Shown here one piece after another: positions 7,902-35,128 of a stretch of 47,682 nt of DNA. The translations under genes and the position numbers were made by a program. Every line of letters starts with the position of its first letter. Within the stretch, counting starts at the first letter, position 1. The DNA comes from Phycisphaerae bacterium (GTDB lineage: Bacteria; Planctomycetota; Phycisphaerae; UBA1845): contig JANQHN010000219.1 in NCBI GenBank assembly GCA_028282665.1, positions 1-47,682 of the forward strand, given 5' to 3'. The notes under the pieces are model-generated. The model made no database searches, was not told the origin of the DNA, and saw only the letters and a list, made by a program, of their open reading frames with translations.

Positions 7902-10057
7902 CCACCCAACGCCTTCGCTCGTTGTTTAATGCTGTTTCGTTGCGGAGCATCCTCGGGTAGGGAGTCTATCGCTTTTCGATACGCGCGGATAGCGCTAGTG
8001 GTATCGCCTTGTAGATAAAGAATTTCCGCATGACAGACCAACACCCGCCAATCGTTCGGTGCGGTTTTGATTGCCTGTGCGCAAAGAGAGCGCGCTTCGT
8101 CGAAGTCGTCCTCCCGGCGTCGTTCCATCAGCAACATGGCGAGTTCCACGAGTAGTTGTGGATTGTCGGGCGCCATGGCGACGCATTGACGGTATCGTTT
8201 TATTGCTTCATCGCTTCTTCCCGCGAAATTCAACGTCACCGCGTATTCAGCTTGGAACGTTAGAGAGTCTTCGAATTGCGACTCACGCAAAGCCAGCCTT
8301 GCTATCGCCTCGTCAAACAGTGCAAGTTCGTGCAACAATTGGATGACGGCCAGTTCTTTCTCCAAATCTTCCGGCGATGCATCTGCCCGTTTCTTGAGGG
8401 CGAACAAACGTTCGTGCGAGGATGCGACGAGCAATCCGCGCACTTCTTCGAGGGCTTGTTCCACCGGCGGGTGACCGGGGATTTGCATTTGGGCGATGCT
8501 TAAGTGGTGCAGTGCACCGTCATGGATTCCCGCGCGCATGTATGCCAAGCCCAATTCGCGATGTGCATCTGTGTAACCCAAATCGATCTGGACGGCCCGG
8601 TTCAGCACTTCGATTGCCTCTTCGTGCCGACCGGCGTTACTAAGCCATTGCCCGAAGAGAAGTTGGGCGGTTGCGGTATCCGGGTTGTCTCGATAGGCGG
8701 ATGCGTAGAGCGTACCGTTATTACGCCATTCCGTGTTTCGGACCCAGCATCGGCCTACGGCGGCGATGCACACAATCGCAAGTGCGATTCGTGCCAGTTG
8801 ATGGTTCGACACACTGCGCAATGCGAGTCCGGCGAGCAGCGCGATGGTGAACGAAGGCAAGTACCAAATTCGTTCCGCCATGAACACTTGGATTAATACG
8901 AAAGCGTTGGCGGTCGGTGCATAGCAGACTAGAAGGACAGCGGTTAACAAGGCGATACGTCGATCTCCTTTCCGCCAGGCGACAATTGACCATCCGATAA
9001 GACCGGCAGCGATGGTGAGCCCCAAAAGCACGTATGGATTCATGATGCTGGTGGCGAGACGCGTATCATTGGGAGCGTAGGCGGTGGTCAAGACGGCGGG
9101 CCAAATAGTTTTTGTCCAATACATACCCCACAGCTGAATTACGCCTAAGATGTGTTGCCAAAGCGGAGCATCCACTAACAGATTCACCGTCTTGCTAATT
9201 GCCGGTCTTTGGTGCAGCTGTCCGCCCAACGCGTGGTACCTAAGGCCGAAGTACGCGATCAACGGTAAGAAGAGGTACAAGCAATTTCTTGCGGTCTGCA
9301 AGATTGCAAGGGGAAACGAAGGAGAGCAAGATTCAACTGTGATTCGGTCTCGTGACTTTCGCTCCAAACGTGAATACAAGTCAAATAGAGGTACGACGGC
9401 GAGGACCGCGACACCGCTTTCCTTGGCGCCCATCGCCGCAAACGCACAAACCGCTACGATCACCCGCCAACCGATGGTGGCGTAAATCGTGGAACAACGC
9501 AAAGTACGCAAATGCGCGAACACGGCGCACAAACAGCCGCCCGCAGCTAGCATGTCACCGATCCCCACAATGCTCGCGACCACCTCGACGTGAATCGGCA
9601 TCACCGCAAACAGCAGGCCTGACACTAAGGGCACGGCGTTCCCATCGGCGAGCAATCGTGCAAATCGTATGACAAGCCATGTTACAATCGCATGGAGCGC
9701 CAAACAGCAGATGTGGTAAGGAACTGCGTTTGTCCCCGCGAGTATGTACACCGCGCGATAGAACGTCAACGCGACGGGTCTGTACAGCAGATCGCGATTG
9801 GGCATCGACGTGCCACTTTCCGACCAGTAATCCGTAAGCCAGATGTCGTCCCATCCGTTTGGTTCCGTGATTTTGTAGTTATACCGAATGACCGGATTGT
9901 CGTCGTTGGTGAATCCGTTGGGTAGGATGTTGATGAAGCAAATCACGGCGAGCGCGCAACAGACAATTTCTGGTCGGCGCACGGTGGATAGCGGGCGAAG
10001 TTCATTTTCAGGTGTCGTACCATTCGTTTGGAAAACCGTATGTTCGTTTTGCGTCAA
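7898..10057 (-). CDS. TMTC-like polytopic membrane protein with C-terminal TPR repeats
   Basis: A 719-residue protein. The first 440 or so residues hold about ten hydrophobic segments, and the N-terminal block FTNDDNPVIRYN followed by a YRPVALTFYRA motif is typical of the TMTC/DUF1736 group, GT-C-like proteins related to protein O-mannosyltransferases. The acidic pair in FTNDD is where GT-C enzymes have their catalytic Asp. The remaining 280 residues are tetratricopeptide repeats (for example GRHEEAIEVLNRAVQIDLGY and GDTTSAIRAYRKAIDSLPED). It begins with TTG, the only start near the conserved N-terminus, with AGGA-like bases upstream. Cotranscribed and overlapping by 4 nt with the TIGR03790 gene. 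Sugar donor and acceptor are unknown. Confidence 0.8.
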   Translation of the reverse strand: MTQNEHTVFQTNGTTPENELRPLSTVRRPEIVCCALAVICFINILPNGFTNDDNPVIRYNYKITEPNGWDDIWLTDYWSESGTSMPNRDLLYRPVALTFYRAVYILAGTNAVPYHICCLALHAIVTWLVIRFARLLADGNAVPLVSGLLFAVMPIHVEVVASIVGIGDMLAAGGCLCAVFAHLRTLRCSTIYATIGWRVIVAVCAFAAMGAKESGVAVLAVVPLFDLYSRLERKSRDRITVESCSPSFPLAILQTARNCLYLFLPLIAYFGLRYHALGGQLHQRPAISKTVNLLVDAPLWQHILGVIQLWGMYWTKTIWPAVLTTAYAPNDTRLATSIMNPYVLLGLTIAAGLIGWSIVAWRKGDRRIALLTAVLLVCYAPTANAFVLIQVFMAERIWYLPSFTIALLAGLALRSVSNHQLARIALAIVCIAAVGRCWVRNTEWRNNGTLYASAYRDNPDTATAQLLFGQWLSNAGRHEEAIEVLNRAVQIDLGYTDAHRELGLAYMRAGIHDGALHHLSIAQMQIPGHPPVEQALEEVRGLLVASSHERLFALKKRADASPEDLEKELAVIQLLHELALFDEAIARLALRESQFEDSLTFQAEYAVTLNFAGRSDEAIKRYRQCVAMAPDNPQLLVELAMLLMERRREDDFDEARSLCAQAIKTAPNDWRVLVCHAEILYLQGDTTSAIRAYRKAIDSLPEDAPQRNSIKQRAKALGG

Positions 10058-10235
10058 TTCCTGGCCTCGCCTGAGCGTTCCATGAGAAAAACGGTGTGGC
10101 GGGTGGGTTTCACCAAGCCGGTCGCACAGTCCTTATCCTATGCGCTCGCCACGTGCCACGCCACAAAACGACGCAATCCGCCCAACGACTCAATCAACTT
10201 TCTGTGTGAGACTCGCGTTCGCCAAGTCCACGTTA

Positions 10236-10537
10236 CTATTCATAATCCAGATCGGGCATCACAAGGCAGGTATCGGCGATCCGTGGATCGGCGGGATCGG
10301 AATAAGCTTCCGTGCCGGTCAGTCAGGTGGTAATTCTTTGAAGTCGGCGGGGTACAACTTGCCGTCATCACTCCAGTCGCCCGACTGGGAATCGAAATCA
10401 ACGTTCCATCACACGCTCCGTGCGGAACAATGGTCGATTATCAGTGGTGAAATCGGTCTGGAGTCGAAACCGGTTTCGTGGTCAAACGTGGCGAGTTTGT
10501 CTCCAGTAGCGACATTGAAGAATTTTAAACGGCGCCC
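10236..10537 (-). pseudogene. Possible degraded coding remnant
   Basis: Two adjoining minus-strand frames read like one protein broken by stops and a frameshift. First comes RRLKFFNVATGDKLATFDHE and onward to an in-frame TGA; the same frame continues WNVDFDSQSGDWSDDGKLY to a second stop; then a shifted frame gives LTGTEAYSDPADPRIADTC and ends about 20 residues later at TAG. The composition is protein-like rather than random, and the first part loosely recalls a WD40-type strand. There is no start codon or ribosome-binding site upstream. I do not recognise the family. Confidence 0.3.
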
Positions 10538-10540
10538 TTA

Positions 10541-11301
10541 GGGCTTGATGGAGGCGAGTGCATGCCTACCTGCTGGCCAGCACACCTCGGATCCGGATTG
10601 GCTCGACGCATCCGTAGCTAAAGGTTCAAACGGCGAGGCAAAAACCGATGCGGTCGAGATACGAAAGTGAGGTCATTAGCGGAAGTTAACCGGGACGCTC
10701 TCCCAGCAGCCCGCAGTTATAGCAGGTAGGTTCGCATTCCTTATTTCCGTTCTGTGCATGAAGTCATCTTGGAATGGATTATTTAGACAACTTGCGAGGT
10801 TAAAGGTTATGCATCAAGTTCGGCAGTTCATCCCAAAACCATCCGCAATCAACAATCACAAAAGCGGCGACCGAGGGGGTGAATTTCAAGTGCAACCGCA
10901 CTATGTGTCGCATAAACGCCATGGACTGCGCACCAATTGAAACTTTCAGTGAGTCAATCAACCGTGTCGGCAATTGACCGGTTTTCGGGCGTTGATCGTA
11001 TCGAGGCGTGCTTCCGGATAATTTCTTGAATTGGCCCGAATAAAAGCCTAAATTACTCTTAGGTATGGGGTGTCCCGCCAAGTGGGGAAGGGGTGGGACC
11101 ATTCCCCGGGGGATTCTTGAATTCGTTGATCACAAGGCTGACTGCCCACTTTGTCGACGAGCACTTTTGAATACAGGTAGTGCTCGGTTTATTTCGGTTT
11201 GTGGGATGGCGTTGGCAAAGTAGATTCCAGTTCCGCTACGAGGTTGTATTTAGCATCCTATAGAGCCGATTTTTGTCGCAAAGGATATAAGGAGATCGGA
11301 T
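10541..11301 (+). other. Long leader/intergenic stretch upstream of subtilase
   Basis: No gene is supported between the remnant at 10.5 kb and the subtilase. Short open frames on both strands (10758-10940 plus, 10800-11102 minus) lack ribosome-binding sites and known domains. The right part, after a candidate promoter at 11026-11054, would be a leader of about 240 nt. It contains a GTCCCGCC...GGGTGGGAC hairpin near 11070-11100 and a CCCCGGGGG run just after it. No known riboswitch class was recognised. Confidence 0.4.
11026..11054 (+). promoter_or_regulatory. Candidate sigma70-type promoter for the subtilase
   Basis: TTGAAT (11026-11031) and TAAATT (11049-11054) are separated by 17 nt, close to the housekeeping consensus. 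It points toward the subtilase gene and would give a leader of about 240 nt. Only sequence resemblance supports it. Confidence 0.45.
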
Positions 11302-14106
11302 ATGAAAAGGCTGACTTTGTTGGCCGTGCTGATGTTGGCGTGTACGATCGGACTTGCTCCTGTGAAAGCTGGTAGCGTCGACCCGAACCTCGAAGTCGTC
11401 ATGAACCAGCTTAACGAAGGAGAGACGGTCGAGGCCTTGGTTTACATGTGGAATCAGGTTGATCTTGTCGCTTTGCACGCACAACTGAAGGCAGAGCGGG
11501 CTTCGCGTCACGAGCGCCACTACCGGGTGGTAACGGCCCTGCGTGAACTTGCCGAGGCGGATCGCGGGCCGATTCTCGCTCGCATCAAGGAACTCTACGT
11601 CGAAGGCAAGATTGAAAGCTATAGACCCTTTAAAGCTTACAATATCATTCGTATCCGAGCGACACCTGAAGCGATCATCGAACTTGCCGCTCGCGAGGAT
11701 GTCGATACCGTTTATCTGAACTATGAAATCGAACTGATCGAGCCCGTTGATGAGACTCCGAGTACGAGTGGTGTGCAATCTGACCTTCGTGTCGTTGAGG
11801 ACGGAGTCGTAGCCGTCAATGCTCCTGAAGTTTGGGACTTGGGTTTCACGGGTACCGGCGTACTGGTCGCAAACATGGATACAGGCGTTGCTGGCGATCA
11901 CGAAGCTCTGGCGAGTCGATGGGCCGGTGTGGCCGATCCGAACTACGCGGGTCATCCGGAATGGGCGTGGTACGATCCGTACAACAACCAGAACACATTC
12001 CCTTATGACACCAACAGTCACGGCACGCACACGATGGGTAGTGTATGCGGTGGGGCTCCGGGTGACGAAATCGGTGTGGCCCCCGGAGCATTGTGGATTG
12101 CTTCCGCACCCATCGATCGTGGCGGTGGAGTCGATCAAACTGTTGCTGACGCATTGCTTTCTTTCGAATGGATGTTGGATCCCGATGGTGACCCGAATAC
12201 GTCCTGGGATGTTCCCCACGTTTGTTCGAATTCCTGGGGGGTAAGAACGAGTCACGGTTATCCCGACTGCGATCAGACTTTTTGGGCGCCAATCGACGCA
12301 AATGAAGCTGCGGGGACGATTATTCTTTTCTCGGCGGGTAACGAAGGGCCAAGCGCGACCTCTCTGCGTCGTCCTGGTGATCGTGCGACAACCGAATTCA
12401 GTATTCTCGCTGTCGCCTCAATTGATCCGCACAATCCTTCATACCCCGCGGCTAATTCCTCATCGCGCGGTCCCACGTTCTGTACCCCCGATGGGTCAGC
12501 CGCAATCAAGCCGGACATCGCTGCGCCGGGAGTAAACATTCGTTCCGCGATGCCCAGCGGCGGGTACGCGAACAAGAGCGGTACTTCGATGGCCTCACCG
12601 CACGTAAACGGTGTGGTTGCTTTGATGCTTCAAGCTTGCCCCGACCTGACAAGCGAAGAAGTTAAGCAAATCATTTATGATACGGCGATGGACCTGGGGG
12701 ACGAGGGCAAAGATAACACTTACGGTTACGGCCTGATTGATGCACTCGAGGCCGTTACTACGGCATTGGGGTATTGTGGCGAGAGCCCGCCCCGTATTTT
12801 CGACGCATCGTACGAGATTGCCGTGGCTGGTCAGCAGGTCATCGAGTTGGAAGCGACCGACTACGACGGTGGTCCGAATCCGATTTCCTTCAAGATCGTC
12901 AACCTTCCCGCCAAGGGCACGTTGATGGACATGGGGGACAATCATGTGATTGAAGCGAGCGATCTGCCATACACATTGGTGAATAATGGTAACGCTGTCC
13001 AGTTTACAGGTTTGTCTGATGCTTATGGCGCGGATTCGTTTGAGTTTGTTGCGAATGACGGTGGCGTACCGCCAGAGGGTGGTGATTCGGATGTCGGCGT
13101 GATTTCCATTTTGCTGCTCTACGGTCCGCCTACGATCGCCACAAGCGCGTTACCGGACGGTGCTGTCGACACGCCGTATACACCAGTCATGCTACAAGCG
13201 GACGAAGGCCAGCCCGAGTTGGTCTGGACATTCCTCAGTGATCTCTATTCAGAGGTCGATTTGGGAGTAAACAACTTTGCCGCGGTTGGTACGAATATGG
13301 ATTACAATGCCGATGACAACGTTTGGTCTTACACGTTGCCGTTTAGTTTCCCATTTTACGGCCAGTTGCGTGATAGTTTGTGGATTTCTTCCAACGGCTA
13401 CATCGATTTCGAAAACGACGATCCTTGGCAGCATACCAACACGACCCAACTGCTGATTGACAACGTGCGTATCGCGCCGCTATGGGACGACCTTCGCACC
13501 GACATCTTGGGTTCGGACATCTACATTGACGAATCCACGCCTGGTCAAGTGACCATCCGTTGGGATGCGGTCACTTACTCTGGAAGTCATGCGACCGATT
13601 TCTCCGTGACTCTCTTCGCGGATGGCGTGATTGAATTATCTTACTCGCAGACAAGTCCTACAATGTCGCCGACCGTTGGCGTTTCCAGCGGCGATGGAAA
13701 CGCCTACATGCTTAGCATGTACGATGCGATGCCCGATCTGTCGAACGTGAACACCGTCAAAATTTTCCTGCCTTCGCCGCTCCCTGAAGGTATGGAACTC
13801 GATACCACAGGAGAAGTGCATGGCACGCCGACCGAGGCAGGCTTGTTCGAGCCGGTCGTGGTTGTGACCGACTCACTGGGGCGGACTGACCAGCGATTGA
13901 TCACACTCCAGGTTCTTGACAGTTTTTGTCCATTGGACTTCGACAACAACGGCAGTGTCGGTCCTGGCGATGTCGGAGTCATTAAGAACCAGTTCGGATG
14001 CGACACCAATATCCCGGATTGCGCTCAATTCGACTTGGACCAGAATGGTGCGGTCGGTCCTGGCGATGTTGGCGTTGTGAAGAATGCCTTCGGTCCTTGT
14101 CCGTAG
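11302..14106 (+). CDS. Secreted S8 subtilase with dockerin-like C-terminus
   Basis: A 934-residue secreted serine protease. Residues 1-23 form a signal peptide, followed by an inhibitor-like propeptide (to about 155) and a subtilase domain with the catalytic triad Asp193 (ANMDTGV), His240 (SHGTHTMG) and Ser429 (GTSMASPHV), plus the oxyanion Asn347 (SAGNEGP). The arrangement resembles bacillopeptidase F-type enzymes. After about residue 490 come beta-rich modules: a cadherin/Ig-like block, a region with SNGYIDFENDD typical of nidogen-like bacterial modules, and a putative Ig block. The C-terminus has two calcium-loop repeats, DFDNNGSVGPGDVGVIKNQF and DLDQNGAVGPGDVGVVKNAF, as in dockerin-like planctomycete tails. 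AAGGAG precedes the ATG. It is probably a monocistronic unit bounded by a terminator. Confidence 0.93.
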   Translation: MKRLTLLAVLMLACTIGLAPVKAGSVDPNLEVVMNQLNEGETVEALVYMWNQVDLVALHAQLKAERASRHERHYRVVTALRELAEADRGPILARIKELYVEGKIESYRPFKAYNIIRIRATPEAIIELAAREDVDTVYLNYEIELIEPVDETPSTSGVQSDLRVVEDGVVAVNAPEVWDLGFTGTGVLVANMDTGVAGDHEALASRWAGVADPNYAGHPEWAWYDPYNNQNTFPYDTNSHGTHTMGSVCGGAPGDEIGVAPGALWIASAPIDRGGGVDQTVADALLSFEWMLDPDGDPNTSWDVPHVCSNSWGVRTSHGYPDCDQTFWAPIDANEAAGTIILFSAGNEGPSATSLRRPGDRATTEFSILAVASIDPHNPSYPAANSSSRGPTFCTPDGSAAIKPDIAAPGVNIRSAMPSGGYANKSGTSMASPHVNGVVALMLQACPDLTSEEVKQIIYDTAMDLGDEGKDNTYGYGLIDALEAVTTALGYCGESPPRIFDASYEIAVAGQQVIELEATDYDGGPNPISFKIVNLPAKGTLMDMGDNHVIEASDLPYTLVNNGNAVQFTGLSDAYGADSFEFVANDGGVPPEGGDSDVGVISILLLYGPPTIATSALPDGAVDTPYTPVMLQADEGQPELVWTFLSDLYSEVDLGVNNFAAVGTNMDYNADDNVWSYTLPFSFPFYGQLRDSLWISSNGYIDFENDDPWQHTNTTQLLIDNVRIAPLWDDLRTDILGSDIYIDESTPGQVTIRWDAVTYSGSHATDFSVTLFADGVIELSYSQTSPTMSPTVGVSSGDGNAYMLSMYDAMPDLSNVNTVKIFLPSPLPEGMELDTTGEVHGTPTEAGLFEPVVVVTDSLGRTDQRLITLQVLDSFCPLDFDNNGSVGPGDVGVIKNQFGCDTNIPDCAQFDLDQNGAVGPGDVGVVKNAFGPCP

Positions 14107-14146
14107 CCGTAGGTTTTGTACTAGTGTGAACAGTTTAGTCCGATAG

Positions 14147-14184
14147 GACCCGTTTTGGGGGGTTACTCCAAAGCGGGTCTTTTT
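14147..14184 (+). terminator. Rho-independent terminator after subtilase
   Basis: GACCCGTTTTGG pairs with CCAAAGCGGGTC (one G-U pair) around a short loop, followed by TTTTTA. It lies about 40 nt past the subtilase stop. Confidence 0.9.
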
Positions 14185-14393
14185 ATGCTCATTTACCTTT
14201 ATAGCTTCGTTTGATGATCGCGTTCCGGCGGGAGGGTATGCAGGGACGAAAAATAGGCTTGGTGAACCGTAGTGGACTGTTTGACCATGTGCATGGCTTC
14301 GGTAAGATGCGATAACTCTATGATATCGAAATAAGTGGCATACGGCGGCGATGTGGATAACCCGTCGTACCCTATGTTTGAGGAGATCGCATC

Positions 14394-15551
14394 GTGGCGC
14401 TTGCTGGTCCGGACGTTAAGTTGACTGACGATCAAATTGCTCTAATCGATGCCGTTCGCGATTTCGCGCGAGGCGAATTGTTGCCGCTAGATCGCAAGTG
14501 GGATGAGGACGAATCCTCGGTCGCCGAGGTTTTGCCACAGCTCGCTGAGATGGGCTTGATGAACCTGGTCATCCCCGAGGATTACGGCGGACTCGGGTGC
14601 GATTACTGTACCTATGCGTCCATAATCCACGAAATCGCCTACGCTTCGCCCAGTGCCGCGGTTACCCTCTCCGTTCACAACATGGTCGGCAAAATCCTCG
14701 CCGCCAATTCCAACAATGATGAGAAAATACAATGGGTTCGCGAGTGGGGTACACCGGGCAGTTTCGCCGCTTTTGCACTCAGTGAAGCCAACGCCGGCAG
14801 CGACGCAGCCGCAGTATCAACCAAAATCGTCGAGGACGATGAAGGATTCTGGCTTACCGGCGAAAAAATGTGGATCACGAATGGTATGCATGCTCGTTGG
14901 TTCCTCACGCTCGGCCGACTCGAAGGAGCGCCCAAAGGTGAAGACTTGGTCGCGATCTGGGTGGACGGAAACGAGTCAGGCATCAGTCGCGATAAGATCT
15001 GCGGCAAGATGGGAATCCGCGGTAGCGAGACGGCGGTCATTGCGTTCGACAACGTCTTTGCACCCAAGGCGAACCTGATCGGTGAGCGAGGGGATGGCCT
15101 GAAGGTTTTCTTGTCGACGTTGAATGAGGGGAGAATCGGTATCGCCGCGCAGGCGTGTGGCATTGCTGAAGCTGCCTTCGACGAAATGGTCAGTTACGCG
15201 AAACAGCGCGAGCAATTCGGCAAGCCGATCGGCAAATTCCAATCGATCAGCAACATGGTGGCCGACAGCGCCGTGGAACTCGCCGCCGCAAAACTTCTTA
15301 TCTGGGAAGCGGCGATGGGTGTGGACGAGAAGCGATTAGCACCGTTGGCCGCATCGATGGCCAAACTCTACGCCACCGAAGCAGCCAATACCATCGCCGA
15401 CCGTGCTGTCCAAATCCATGGCGGAAGTGGCTACGTCCGCGAATTCCGCGTCGAACAACTCTACCGCGACGCTCGCGTCACCACGATCTACGAAGGCACT
15501 AGCGAGGTGCAACGCATCGTCATCGCGCGGGAGTACCTGGGTAGGCTGTAG
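14394..15551 (+). CDS. Acyl-CoA dehydrogenase (short-chain/butyryl type)
   Basis: A 385-residue FAD-dependent acyl-CoA dehydrogenase of standard length that oxidises acyl-CoA to the trans-2-enoyl form. The flavin/substrate blocks FALSEANAGSDA and EKMWITNG are present, and the C-terminal stretch QIHGGSGYVREF to IYEGTSEVQRIVIAR contains the expected catalytic Glu367 of the short/medium-chain and butyryl-CoA group. Electrons would pass to an electron-transfer flavoprotein, which is not encoded nearby. The start is GTG at 14394, with GAGGAG at good spacing. A thiolase lies 16 kb away in this window but not in the same operon. Confidence 0.93.
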   Translation: MALAGPDVKLTDDQIALIDAVRDFARGELLPLDRKWDEDESSVAEVLPQLAEMGLMNLVIPEDYGGLGCDYCTYASIIHEIAYASPSAAVTLSVHNMVGKILAANSNNDEKIQWVREWGTPGSFAAFALSEANAGSDAAAVSTKIVEDDEGFWLTGEKMWITNGMHARWFLTLGRLEGAPKGEDLVAIWVDGNESGISRDKICGKMGIRGSETAVIAFDNVFAPKANLIGERGDGLKVFLSTLNEGRIGIAAQACGIAEAAFDEMVSYAKQREQFGKPIGKFQSISNMVADSAVELAAAKLLIWEAAMGVDEKRLAPLAASMAKLYATEAANTIADRAVQIHGGSGYVREFRVEQLYRDARVTTIYEGTSEVQRIVIAREYLGRL

Positions 15552-31919: not shown

Positions 31920-31967
31920 AAAAAACGGGCCTGCTGCAAGCACCGCAAGGATGCCCGGGCAGGCCTG
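31920..31967 (-). terminator. Terminator after the Cys-rich protein gene
   Basis: On the minus strand GGCCTGC (31960-31966) pairs with GCAGGCC (31929-31935), followed by CG and a run of T. It ends about 115 nt after the stop of the Cys-rich gene. Confidence 0.75.
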
Positions 31968-32034: not shown

Positions 32035-33183
32035 TTACATGTCTTCCTGCATGTAGTACACGTAAACAGCTTGCGTCTCACTTTCGTCTGTTTGCAAAGC
32101 GGTCTTGGATGCACAGGACTTGCCGCACTTGGCTTTGTCGCAACCACCCTTGTTGCACTTTTTGCCACAATCGCCCTTCACGCATGTCCCACAGCAACCG
32201 GGCTTTCCATCTTTCACCAAGCCGCGCGGGGACATCTTGCCCTTCGGACCGTGTGGTGGGAATCCGCCGAAACCGGGATGAGGAGGGTGAGCGGGGCCGC
32301 TGTGGAAGTTATTGTTGTTACCATAAATGTAGTAGACATAGACGACCTGTGCACAGCAACCCGGACCACTGCAGCAGGTCTTCGGGCCGCAAGAACCTTT
32401 GTTGCACTTCATTCCACAAGCGCTGCCGCACTTTGAACTACAAACGGACTTGTCGTATTTGGAGTCACAAGCGCCGCCCCATCTGGCTTTGTCACAGCCT
32501 CCCTTGTCACACTTCGAGCCGCAGGCAAATTTGTCGCACTTCTTACCGGTGGCGACTTTTTTCCCTTTGTCGCATTTGCGATCACAATCCGAAACACACT
32601 TGGATTTATCACAATCGACAGTAGCTTTCTTCGCAGCCGAGCCGCACTTCGAAGAGCAATCACTTCCACATTTTGACTTATCACATTGGCTCGCACCGCC
32701 GACCAACGTAGCCGTACCGGGTTTGCGGGCCTTCACCTTTGACCCGCAAGGCGTCGTCGCGTTTGGGGTTTTCTTGGCCGAGCCACAGCCCGTCTTGGAA
32801 CACGGTTTCGAGCAGGGCTGGGAACAACCTTGTTTCACGTTGGCGGTGGTGTTGACTTCGGTGATCGGGCGAACGTCTTTGGCTTTTAGACGCACAGGCT
32901 GAGCGGGCGCTTGACCGCACTTTTTCTTGCAGGAGCTCTTGCAGCCACGTTTGATGACCTTTTTGACCTGTTTGGATTTACTAGTATCAGATGCTTTTGT
33001 TACCTTCGACGCGGAGTCCGCAACGGAATTCGACGCGCTCGTGCTGCAGGGCGTGCCGTTGTCGGCGACGGTTGCGCTGAAATACTTGGCCAAAACAGTG
33101 TGCTTGGCCGAAGCCGTGCTGCAGAAGAAAGCAGCCACTAATGCAACCGCCATCGCGATCCCCATTATCCTATTAAACTTCAT
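32035..33183 (-). CDS. Secreted cysteine-rich repeat protein, putative metal-binding
   Basis: A 382-residue protein with a clear signal peptide (MKFNRIMGIAMAVALVAAFF, cut after STASA). The mature part has about 39 Cys in loose repeats such as CDKSKCGSDCSSKCGS and CDKGGCDKARWGG, with many Lys and few aromatics. Two cysteine blocks are each followed by a Tyr-rich stretch, AQVVYVYYIYG mid-protein and QAVYVYYMQE at the C-terminus, and a His/Pro/Gly segment lies between them. I know no family with this layout; metallothionein-like metal binding or disulfide cross-linking at the surface is inferred. GTGGAG precedes the ATG. It follows the sensor, anti-sigma and sigma genes on the same strand and is probably their target or partner. 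Confidence 0.8.
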   Translation of the reverse strand: MKFNRIMGIAMAVALVAAFFCSTASAKHTVLAKYFSATVADNGTPCSTSASNSVADSASKVTKASDTSKSKQVKKVIKRGCKSSCKKKCGQAPAQPVRLKAKDVRPITEVNTTANVKQGCSQPCSKPCSKTGCGSAKKTPNATTPCGSKVKARKPGTATLVGGASQCDKSKCGSDCSSKCGSAAKKATVDCDKSKCVSDCDRKCDKGKKVATGKKCDKFACGSKCDKGGCDKARWGGACDSKYDKSVCSSKCGSACGMKCNKGSCGPKTCCSGPGCCAQVVYVYYIYGNNNNFHSGPAHPPHPGFGGFPPHGPKGKMSPRGLVKDGKPGCCGTCVKGDCGKKCNKGGCDKAKCGKSCASKTALQTDESETQAVYVYYMQEDM

Positions 33184-33206
33184 ATCAGACTCCACAGTTA
33201 ATGGAC

Positions 33207-33395
33207 TCAATTGCGTAAGAGCGCTACCTTTAGCGATCTATTGCTGCATTGGCACCCGTACCGTTCGGTTCGGATGTGCCACGATTTTGTGATTTCATGG
33301 ATCCGTCTGATCGCAAACTCAATGCTCACGATTAAGCCGGCTAAGATGTTGAGATGAACTTCACCTGCGACAAAGTCAGGTGCTAAGAAAGCCAT
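33207..33395 (-). CDS. Possible 62-residue protein between sensor and Cys-rich genes
   Basis: An open frame starting 25 nt after the sensor gene, with GAGGAGGGG almost touching the ATG. The product has one hydrophobic stretch (NILAGLIVSIEFAI) and a basic tail with two cysteines. It may be a real member of the operon or a chance frame with a purine-rich lead. There is no homology to judge by. Confidence 0.25.
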   Translation of the reverse strand: MAFLAPDFVAGEVHLNILAGLIVSIEFAIRRIHEITKSWHIRTERYGCQCSNRSLKVALLRN

Positions 33396-33420
33396 CCCCT
33401 CCTCTAACGATCATTGTGAC

Positions 33421-34044
33421 TTAATCTTGCCCCTGGTCGCACATTGAGTTCGCCGTTGTTACGGCTGCGTTACCGCTGGTTTTCGAGTGAGTCGCATTGT
33501 TACATCTCGGTTTCTTCCCGCACGGCTTAACAACGCCGGTTGAGTTAGTTTGTCCCCCACAACCATCACAGCCAGTATCGCCTTTGGGACACTTTCCACC
33601 CACCGCGCGACATTGACGAACTTCATCAGCACACAGACTAAAGAGTCGGTGTTGCTGCTGTGGTGTGAGGTATTGGCGTACGGCGATGATGTGTTCTGCG
33701 ACACGTCGCTCAAGAGCGTTGTGAGCGGAGATTACCGCTTCCACGGTGGCGCGAATGCGATCATCGCTGGCGCTGCCATCCTCAAATGTCCGAGCGAGTT
33801 CAAGCCGTTTGCTGTTGAGTTCCGTGCGGAGTTTGCAAAGTTCAGCAGTGAACGCTTCATCCTGTTTGTTGATGGCTTCACGTTGTGTCTCGTCAAGATC
33901 AAGCCAGTTCGAAAAGAGCGCACATCCTTTTTGTTCACAGGGCGTTTTGGGGTTTTGGCTGCTTATAGCGACTGTTCCTACGAAGCTGCCCGCAAAAACG
34001 AGGGCAAAAAGTACAGCGATGAGTATTCCGCCTCTACTAATCAC
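33421..34044 (-). CDS. CnrX/Spy-like periplasmic sensor with Cys-rich tail
   Basis: A 207-residue protein anchored by one N-terminal transmembrane segment (ILIAVLFALVFAGSFVGTVA). The periplasmic part (residues 45-140) is a helical hairpin of the heavy-metal-sensor/Spy type: LDLDETQREAINKQDEAF, a heptad-like helix, and AEHIIAVRQYLTPQQQHRLF with the family LTPQQ motif. CnrX places a metal-binding His at the position of AEH. An unusual tail of about 60 residues has ten or so cysteines (for example CPKGDTGCDGCGG). The GTG start overlaps the anti-sigma stop by 8 nt and has a nearly perfect AAGGAGGTGA, so the two are translated together. It would sense a metal or redox signal and release the sigma factor. 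Confidence 0.78.
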   Translation of the reverse strand: MISRGGILIAVLFALVFAGSFVGTVAISSQNPKTPCEQKGCALFSNWLDLDETQREAINKQDEAFTAELCKLRTELNSKRLELARTFEDGSASDDRIRATVEAVISAHNALERRVAEHIIAVRQYLTPQQQHRLFSLCADEVRQCRAVGGKCPKGDTGCDGCGGQTNSTGVVKPCGKKPRCNNATHSKTSGNAAVTTANSMCDQGQD

Positions 34045-34537
34045 GACCGCTCACCTCCTTGTTGTCGTTTGAGGCCTGCGCGACGCTTTCGAATTGCGAA
34101 AGCAGGCCGGTTGCGGAAGAGTCCGTGAGCGAAACCAAACTCAGGTAGTCGGCGACGGCAGCGTTGGAATTGACCTGAGTTGGTGTTACCGGTGGCTGGA
34201 CTTGTTGAGAAGAACCCACTGCAAGCCGTCCGGCTCCGATACCCAGTCCCACCGCGAACACGATTGAGGCAGCAAAACGGAATGCTGCGCGAGATCGAGA
34301 GAGCACGAATGGGCCGGCCGGTCGTTGGTGTAAAACCTCGGCTGCTGTGACGACGCGATCAACCAGATTGATCTGCGGTATGTCTTCCAAGTGGCTCAGA
34401 AGGCTCGCGGTTTCTTCCATCGCCGCGAGTCGTGCACGACATGCCGAACAGGTTTCGGCGTGAGCCTGCAAGGGCTCTACGCCCGGTTCATTGGGGTTAA
34501 GCAGCCGCACCAGCTTGGTTGATTCACCGCAAGTCAT
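34037..34537 (-). CDS. Zinc-finger anti-sigma factor
   Basis: A 166-residue membrane anti-sigma factor. The N-terminal cytoplasmic part has the HC2-type motif His26-x3-Cys30-x2-Cys33 (AHAETCSACR) that binds the ECF sigma factor. One transmembrane segment (about 86-104, FAASIVFAVGLGIGAG) leads to a short periplasmic Gln/Ser/Thr-rich tail. It sits between the sigma gene (48 nt upstream) and the overlapping sensor gene, the order expected for a sigma/anti-sigma/sensor operon of the CnrHYX kind, although CnrY itself lacks this zinc finger. Confidence 0.85.
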   Translation of the reverse strand: MTCGESTKLVRLLNPNEPGVEPLQAHAETCSACRARLAAMEETASLLSHLEDIPQINLVDRVVTAAEVLHQRPAGPFVLSRSRAAFRFAASIVFAVGLGIGAGRLAVGSSQQVQPPVTPTQVNSNAAVADYLSLVSLTDSSATGLLSQFESVAQASNDNKEVSGRD

Positions 34538-34585
34538 TGGTATTCACCTATTGATGTAACGAACACGTATCTCACAGCCTGCGGC

Positions 34586-35128
34586 CTATTTTCGGTAAAC
34601 GGCCAAACGTTCTCTCAAGTTGGCGTAGGCGCGCGTGAGCAACGATTCTACGGCTGATTCCGACCAGCCGGTAATCTCGGAAACCTCCTTCAGGGGGCAT
34701 CCGCCAAGGCGATGGAGCAACAGGGCAATACGCTGCCGCTCACTGAGCGCCTGGACAGCCGCTATCACCGCCTCCCGGCTATCTGACTCGTATTTTTCGG
34801 GCGGCGGCGCTTCTCGCTCGGGAATGGCGTCCACGGTTACCTCGCCGCGGCGTTTGTTCTTTCGAATCGAGTCCAGGCAGAGATTAACCGTGATTCGATG
34901 AAGCCAAGTCGTAAGCTTGGCGTCCGGAGTGTACGAGCCGGCATTTCGCCACACTCGCAGGAACACATCTTGAGTAATGTCTTCCGCCAAGGAGGCATTG
35001 CCCGTGGTCCGATAAGCGAGTTGATAAACCCGTGACTGATGACGCCGAACAAGCTCCCCCAGAGCTTCGGTTTGTCCTTCTGCAATGAGAATGACGAGCT
35101 GCTGATCGCTTTGTTGGGGCAGTTTCAC
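34586..35128 (-). CDS. ECF-family RNA polymerase sigma factor
   Basis: A 180-residue sigma factor with region 2 (LGELVRRHQSRVYQLAYRTT, then AEDITQDVFLRVWRN and TWLHRITVNLCLD) and region 4 (LSERQRIALLLHRLGGCPLK, then GWSESAVESLLTRAYANLRE). Regions 1.1 and 3 are missing, as in ECF sigmas. A Pro/Glu-rich linker separates the two domains. It heads an operon with the anti-sigma and sensor genes and probably controls itself and the Cys-rich gene. A consensus ECF promoter was not confidently found in the 315 bp upstream, although GGAAACG near 35185 recalls the usual GGAAC element. Confidence 0.92.
   Translation of the reverse strand: MKLPQQSDQQLVILIAEGQTEALGELVRRHQSRVYQLAYRTTGNASLAEDITQDVFLRVWRNAGSYTPDAKLTTWLHRITVNLCLDSIRKNKRRGEVTVDAIPEREAPPPEKYESDSREAVIAAVQALSERQRIALLLHRLGGCPLKEVSEITGWSESAVESLLTRAYANLRERLAVYRK

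Follow-up and report, generated by a model that had tools for sequence, protein, structure and literature searches.

What is encoded between positions 32,035 and 35,128 of contig JANQHN010000219.1, from the Phycisphaerae bacterium of assembly GCA_028282665.1? The contig, 47,682 nucleotides (nt) long and analysed whole (hereafter the window; C298 in our numbering), belongs to a genome of 4.46 Mb in 446 contigs. Open reading frames (ORFs) and domain searches place four genes on its minus strand, in the order extracytoplasmic function (ECF) sigma factor, anti-sigma factor, sensor and cysteine-rich exported protein (Table 1). This arrangement had been proposed in an earlier, sequence-only reading and was borne out by an ORF check and by Pfam and NCBIfam, as were its anti-sigma factor with an HC2 finger and a membrane anchor, which we find as a hydrophobic run, and its exported protein with about 39 cysteines: the mature 355 residues carry 39, the signal peptide one more. 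The anti-sigma and sensor ORFs overlap by 8 nt, and neither the ORFs nor the annotation of the neighbourhood reveal an efflux pump adjoining the trio in the window.

Table 1. Features of the sigma/anti-sigma/sensor locus and its flanks in the window.
Feature	Position	Strand	Details
ECF sigma factor	34586..35128	-	180 aa, GTG start; Pfam Sigma70_r2 9.5e-22, Sigma70_r4_2 2.2e-15
Predicted ECF-type promoter motif CCGCAGG-N16-CGTTACA, 5' of anti-sigma and sensor	34555..34584	-	score 12/12
Membrane anti-sigma factor, zinc-finger Hx3Cx2C	34037..34537	-	166 aa; HAETCSAC and one hydrophobic anchor
CnrX-fold periplasmic sensor, membrane-anchored, Cys-containing tail	33421..34044	-	207 aa; PF13801 1.3e-9
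Gap between sensor and Cys-rich gene, 237 nt	33184..33420	-	promoter motif absent, terminator absent
Exported Lys/Gly/Cys-rich low-complexity protein	32035..33183	-	382 aa; mature part with 39 Cys
Intrinsic terminator, GC-rich hairpin and U6, 3' of Cys-rich gene	31921..31965	-	from sequence

The first three of these genes recur together. With the sensor as query, matches were found in 16 of 60 related genomes, and an alignment of 12 sensors (A1), used as the query for wider surveys, matched 38 of 397 genomes of the class, 24 of 114 of the order and 6 of 392 phylum-wide (own genome counted). We distinguish 34 type-1 loci, whose sensors score above 115 bits and which are of the window's kind, from 19 weaker, type-2 loci; a back-translation search of genome contigs gained one further locus. 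At almost every locus the sigma gene is followed by the anti-sigma and then by the sensor gene, and the usual overlap between the latter two is 4 nt. Judged by sequence, the trio is a conserved unit, far beyond chance, and the 34 type-1 loci, nearly all of them within one class of Planctomycetota, keep the neighbourhood that the sequence-only reading had suggested looking for in other planctomycete genomes. A DUF2202 protein adjoins the trio more often than the Cys-rich gene does. The window's genome itself yielded no DUF2202 protein, so that this most frequent neighbour at other loci is not the system's output in this case. The same genome holds a paralogous trio with a Spy/CnrX-like sensor (L036, contig C28, 2447-5321), which is followed by an EF-hand-type exported protein in place of the Cys-rich one and, 3' of the trio, by two very long ORFs (9189-12449 and 12691-15495) with 63 and 59 cysteines. 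Within family f23 and its neighbours, the sensor domain is tandemly duplicated in several trios (L077, L079-L085).

According to Pfam, the window's sigma protein has only sigma2 and sigma4 domains, as in an ECF sigma factor, and its orthologs in the same position at close trio loci show 45-55% identity. The anti-sigma factor matches an NCBIfam anti-sigma family weakly (1.1e-6, below the cut-off). Its Hx3Cx2C motif, the signature of class I zinc-binding anti-sigma factors (ASDI; PMC7406223), is kept in all 33 type-1 anti-sigmas examined, and 23 of them show an evident hydrophobic run by a simple pattern. With this motif and a predicted transmembrane anchor, the window's protein fits the ASDI class. 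The system thereby resembles pairs such as those of RsrA, RsiW and ChrR, where an Hx3Cx2C anti-sigma likewise stands beside a sigma2-sigma4 ECF factor, but differs from them in possessing a third gene, for the CnrX-fold sensor, and in placing its promoter site after the sigma gene.

Pfam assigns the window's sensor to Metal_resist (PF13801) above the curated cut-off and also reports LTXXQ-like similarity; its 11 cysteines lie mostly in the C-terminal tail. A profile search of the PDB returned CnrX first (E 3.2e-5), with NccX also at the top. In the AlphaFold2 (AF2) model, a membrane helix at the N terminus precedes a core built as a hooked helical hairpin, where the predicted local distance difference test (pLDDT) exceeds 90, and the top 15 Foldseek matches of this model are all CnrX or NccX (TMt up to 0.78), ZraP and CpxP coming next. 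By profile and model, the sensor truly has the CnrX fold. Does it also retain the metal site of CnrX? In an alignment of 27 type-1 sensors to CnrX (H42, H46, E63, H119, M123), His is lost at the H42 and H46 positions apart from one His, and the position of Met123, which CnrX homologs are described as conserving and needing (PMC7689651), is V, L or I in nearly all and M in two. The E63 position keeps a carboxylate in 24 of the 27, mostly Asp, 25 have His or Tyr at H119, and a Cys often occurs near the end of the core. A CnrX-type Ni/Co site was rejected on this alignment, by which the sensor is a CnrX fold without the known Ni/Co site. The likeness to CnrX put forward in the sequence-only reading thus stands for the fold, by PDB profile and Foldseek, and does not extend to the Ni/Co ligands; with the ligand set not conserved, the signal need not be Ni/Co.

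Regions upstream of orthologous operons yielded a clear motif, CCGCAGG-N16/17-CGTTNNA, as had been hoped for when building one from relatives was proposed. With its conserved boxes and spacer it is the predicted cognate ECF promoter; canonical EcfG sigma factors, too, have a CGTT -10 box (PMC8103513). At 26 of 33 type-1 loci the motif scores at least 10 of 12 at the sigma/anti-sigma junction, just 5' of the anti-sigma gene and always 447-545 nt before the sensor start; the mean best score in shuffled regions is ~8.3 of 12. The window's copy is the only exact CCGCAGG-N-CGTT match in 47.7 kb. About half of the loci have a second copy directed outward from the operon; at the loci studied closely, it faces a small lipoprotein and a DUF2202 protein. 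Each copy is either located past the sigma gene or directed away from it, and no locus scanned with the exact pattern has an exact motif on the same strand upstream of sigma; the promoter before the sigma gene that positive autoregulation would call for is, by this pattern, lacking. Four type-2 trios (L033, L034, L090, L091) carry at the same junction a related but different box, CCGCA[AG]GTTT-N~13-TGCT, which probably serves a second subtype of sigma factor as its promoter.

Beyond the operon, the motif points to exported metal- and thiol-binding proteins as the output of the system. In the window's own genome its strict form has 5 matches, versus 0 for a reversed control; of 22 CCGCAGG/CGTT matches there, most fall within genes and were discounted as fortuitous. 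An intergenic 12/12 site lies ~85 nt 5' of an exported tandem-HMA protein, the two HMA domains of which are closest to those of copper ATPases, CopZ and MerP, and an 11/12 site stands 5' of a gene pair encoding first an exported TPR protein whose tail is Cys-rich and then a NapH-like polyferredoxin. The tandem-HMA protein and the TPR/NapH-like pair are probably further targets in this genome. A site of at least 10/12 precedes the TPR gene in 5 of 14 trio genomes, versus 0 of 15 genomes without a type-1 trio (Fisher p 0.017), and in the relatives L030, L068, L071 and L077 the same motif stands before DUF4405 (cytochrome b561-like) membrane genes.

Is the Cys-rich gene part of this output? Its product has a Sec-type signal peptide and a cysteine spacing dominated by C-x3-C (14) and C-x4-C (11), and its ATG at 33,183 is preceded by GGAG. 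No Pfam or NCBIfam family matches it above the cut-off, no homolog was found in 60 relatives at E 1e-3, and a single-sequence AF2 run made without an alignment gives no fold (pLDDT 35). The sequence-only reading, which took the gene for the target of the sigma factor from its position, expected it always beside the trio and behind a promoter motif shared with the sigma operon. Constant adjacency was rejected: a Cys-rich gene lies beside only 3 of the 34 type-1 loci, one of them divergent. No motif lies directly upstream of the gene either, even with one mismatch allowed per box, so that the link in its literal form fails. What survives is a version by read-through. In the gap between sensor and Cys-rich gene neither a terminator nor a sigma-70-like site was seen; the strong hairpin with U6 lies on the other side, 3' of the gene. 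Furthermore, L074, from the same order and a different family, has on one strand the motif, an anti-sigma gene, a sensor gene encoding 12 cysteines, a gene for a 40-Cys exported protein, and genes for a Cys-tailed TPR and a NapH-like protein. This 40-Cys protein is unrelated to the window's, starts 49 nt after the sensor stop and occupies the same position, in the company of a TPR gene that bears the motif in other trio genomes. Because of the missing terminator before the gene, the hairpin after it and the L074 cluster, we consider it reasonably probable that the Cys-rich gene is co-transcribed by read-through from the junction promoter. Its product is probably one output in this genome, not a fixed part of the system. 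At L080, a divergent gene for a 97-aa, 10-Cys exported protein lies behind the near-motif CCGCAGG-N17-CGTC, and the type-2 loci L035, L091 and L032 have Cys-rich exported neighbours, partly beside pump genes. Sensors beside Cys-rich genes are Cys-rich themselves (p 0.006, from 3 cases only). The gap in the window also holds a 62-codon ORF (33207-33395, minus strand) with GGAGG just 5' of its ATG, which may be chance.

We lean, by a modest degree, towards an extracytoplasmic metal- or thiol-stress ECF system with feedback on its inhibitor, to which the Cys-rich protein is added by read-through. At rest, the HC2 domain of the membrane anti-sigma would hold the sigma factor. An envelope signal, more probably a soft metal such as Cu or Hg or thiol damage than Ni/Co, would be detected by the CnrX-fold sensor, which shares operon and membrane with the anti-sigma and would then relieve the inhibition, whereupon the freed sigma factor would fire the CCGCAGG-N16/17-CGTTNNA promoters. 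With the site placed between the sigma and anti-sigma genes, anti-sigma and sensor would be induced and sigma would not, so that the inhibitor is recharged. In the window, the exported Cys-rich protein would be induced along with them and might act as an unstructured thiol sponge for metal.

Several observations weigh against this scenario. Controls average ~2 strict matches per genome (32 genomes), for which reason single sites need support and the HMA site, taken by itself, might be fortuitous; at the TPR gene, several trio genomes have no site; and the L074 cluster has no adjoining sigma gene. Most trio loci lack a Cys-rich neighbour, and exported Cys-rich ORFs are not enriched near trios (3/403 near versus 2/449 far, by crude ORF calling). 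Between the window's Cys-rich gene and the sensor lie 237 nt, long for an operon and free of the motif, so the gene may have a separate promoter. These last points would suit a real metal- or envelope-stress system, trio and motif included, to which the neighbouring Cys-rich gene is unconnected, being read from a separate, non-ECF promoter inside the gap. We regard this as a serious alternative, if a somewhat improbable one, since the analogous gene of L074 stands in the same place ahead of TPR and NapH-like genes and the window's gap, clear of both sigma-70-like site and terminator, is followed by a gene with a terminator directly behind it.

The poor conservation of the CnrX ligands in type-1 sensors also counts against metal sensing. 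It would fit a sensor that, like Spy or CpxP, reports envelope misfolding or redox stress with no bound metal, the Cys-rich and Cys-tailed outputs being redox buffers. H42, H46 and M123 are lost in almost all members, the fold superfamily includes ZraP, CpxP and Spy, cysteines are frequent near the end of the sensor core, and redox proteins (NapH-like, DUF4405/cytochrome b561-like) lie behind the motif. However, the best sequence and structure matches are CnrX and NccX, not Spy or CpxP, the E63 and H119 positions mostly keep a carboxylate and a His or Tyr, and this genome offers a copper/mercury-type HMA target; a metal-free sensor therefore strikes us as rather doubtful. A structural role for the Cys-rich protein, cross-linked by disulfides as part of the envelope or a matrix or as an adhesive, would agree with its low-complexity Lys/Gly/Ser/Cys composition, a weak sub-threshold match to the Pfam family New_glue and the want of a predicted fold. 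Such a role is unlikely given that the gene stands in a presumed metal-type regulon alongside those for Cys-tailed and HMA proteins and that the product has 39 Cys per 355 residues.

How does the metal- or thiol-stress system compare with known ones? With CnrYXH and NccYXH, which respond to nickel and cobalt in Cupriavidus metallidurans, it shares an ECF sigma factor, a membrane anti-sigma and a membrane-anchored CnrX-fold sensor. The planctomycete anti-sigma, however, is of the HC2 zinc-finger kind, whereas CnrY belongs to another, non-zinc-finger class (PMC8103513); the genes run sigma/anti-sigma/sensor; Met123 and His42/46 of CnrX are not conserved; and no resistance-nodulation-division (RND) pump lies in the window's neighbourhood. 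Instead, the CCGCAGG/CGTT motif is predicted to drive anti-sigma, sensor and exported thiol/metal proteins. Pump-like genes are rare near close orthologs and recur by more distant sensors (L035, L087, L088). The system works in the manner of CnrYXH, yet its ligands, the class of its anti-sigma, the order of its genes and the missing pump set it outside that group, much as the sequence-only reading had it: a CnrX-like module with a different anti-sigma and without a pump, the output being, by prediction, exported thiol/metal proteins. Spy, CpxP and ZraP share the fold superfamily and the LTXXQ-like similarity, but the planctomycete sensor has a membrane-anchoring N-terminal helix, is operonic with an ECF/anti-sigma pair and is closer to CnrX. 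The window's Cys-rich protein has many cysteines and the presumed role of a soft-metal sponge in common with bacterial metallothioneins and Csp copper-storage proteins. It differs in being exported, in matching no Pfam or NCBIfam family and in setting its cysteines within Lys/Gly low complexity; neither the CxC/CxxC arrays of metallothioneins nor, in the alignment-free AF2 run, a helical bundle such as the Cys-lined four-helix bundle of Csp was found in it.

The low-complexity repeats differ from lineage to lineage, with K-C in the window, CGP in L074 and C-EKKEG in L080. Tentatively, and as a conjecture that may well prove wrong, we suggest a class of ECF systems that would buffer soft metals outside the cytoplasm through secreted, freely evolving low-complexity Cys sponges, re-invented per lineage, with Cys-tailed TPR and NapH-like partners and a sigma gene that lies outside its own feedback loop. 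A search of the open literature found no paper on a sigma/HC2/CnrX-fold trio or on PF13801 beside ECF sigma factors. For this ECF type of the Planctomycetota, our analysis provides a testable motif and a small predicted regulon, and it describes a CnrX-fold sensor devoid of the Ni/Co ligand set, whose partner is a zinc-finger anti-sigma. It also offers a concrete way to ask whether secreted low-complexity Cys-rich proteins are metal buffers.

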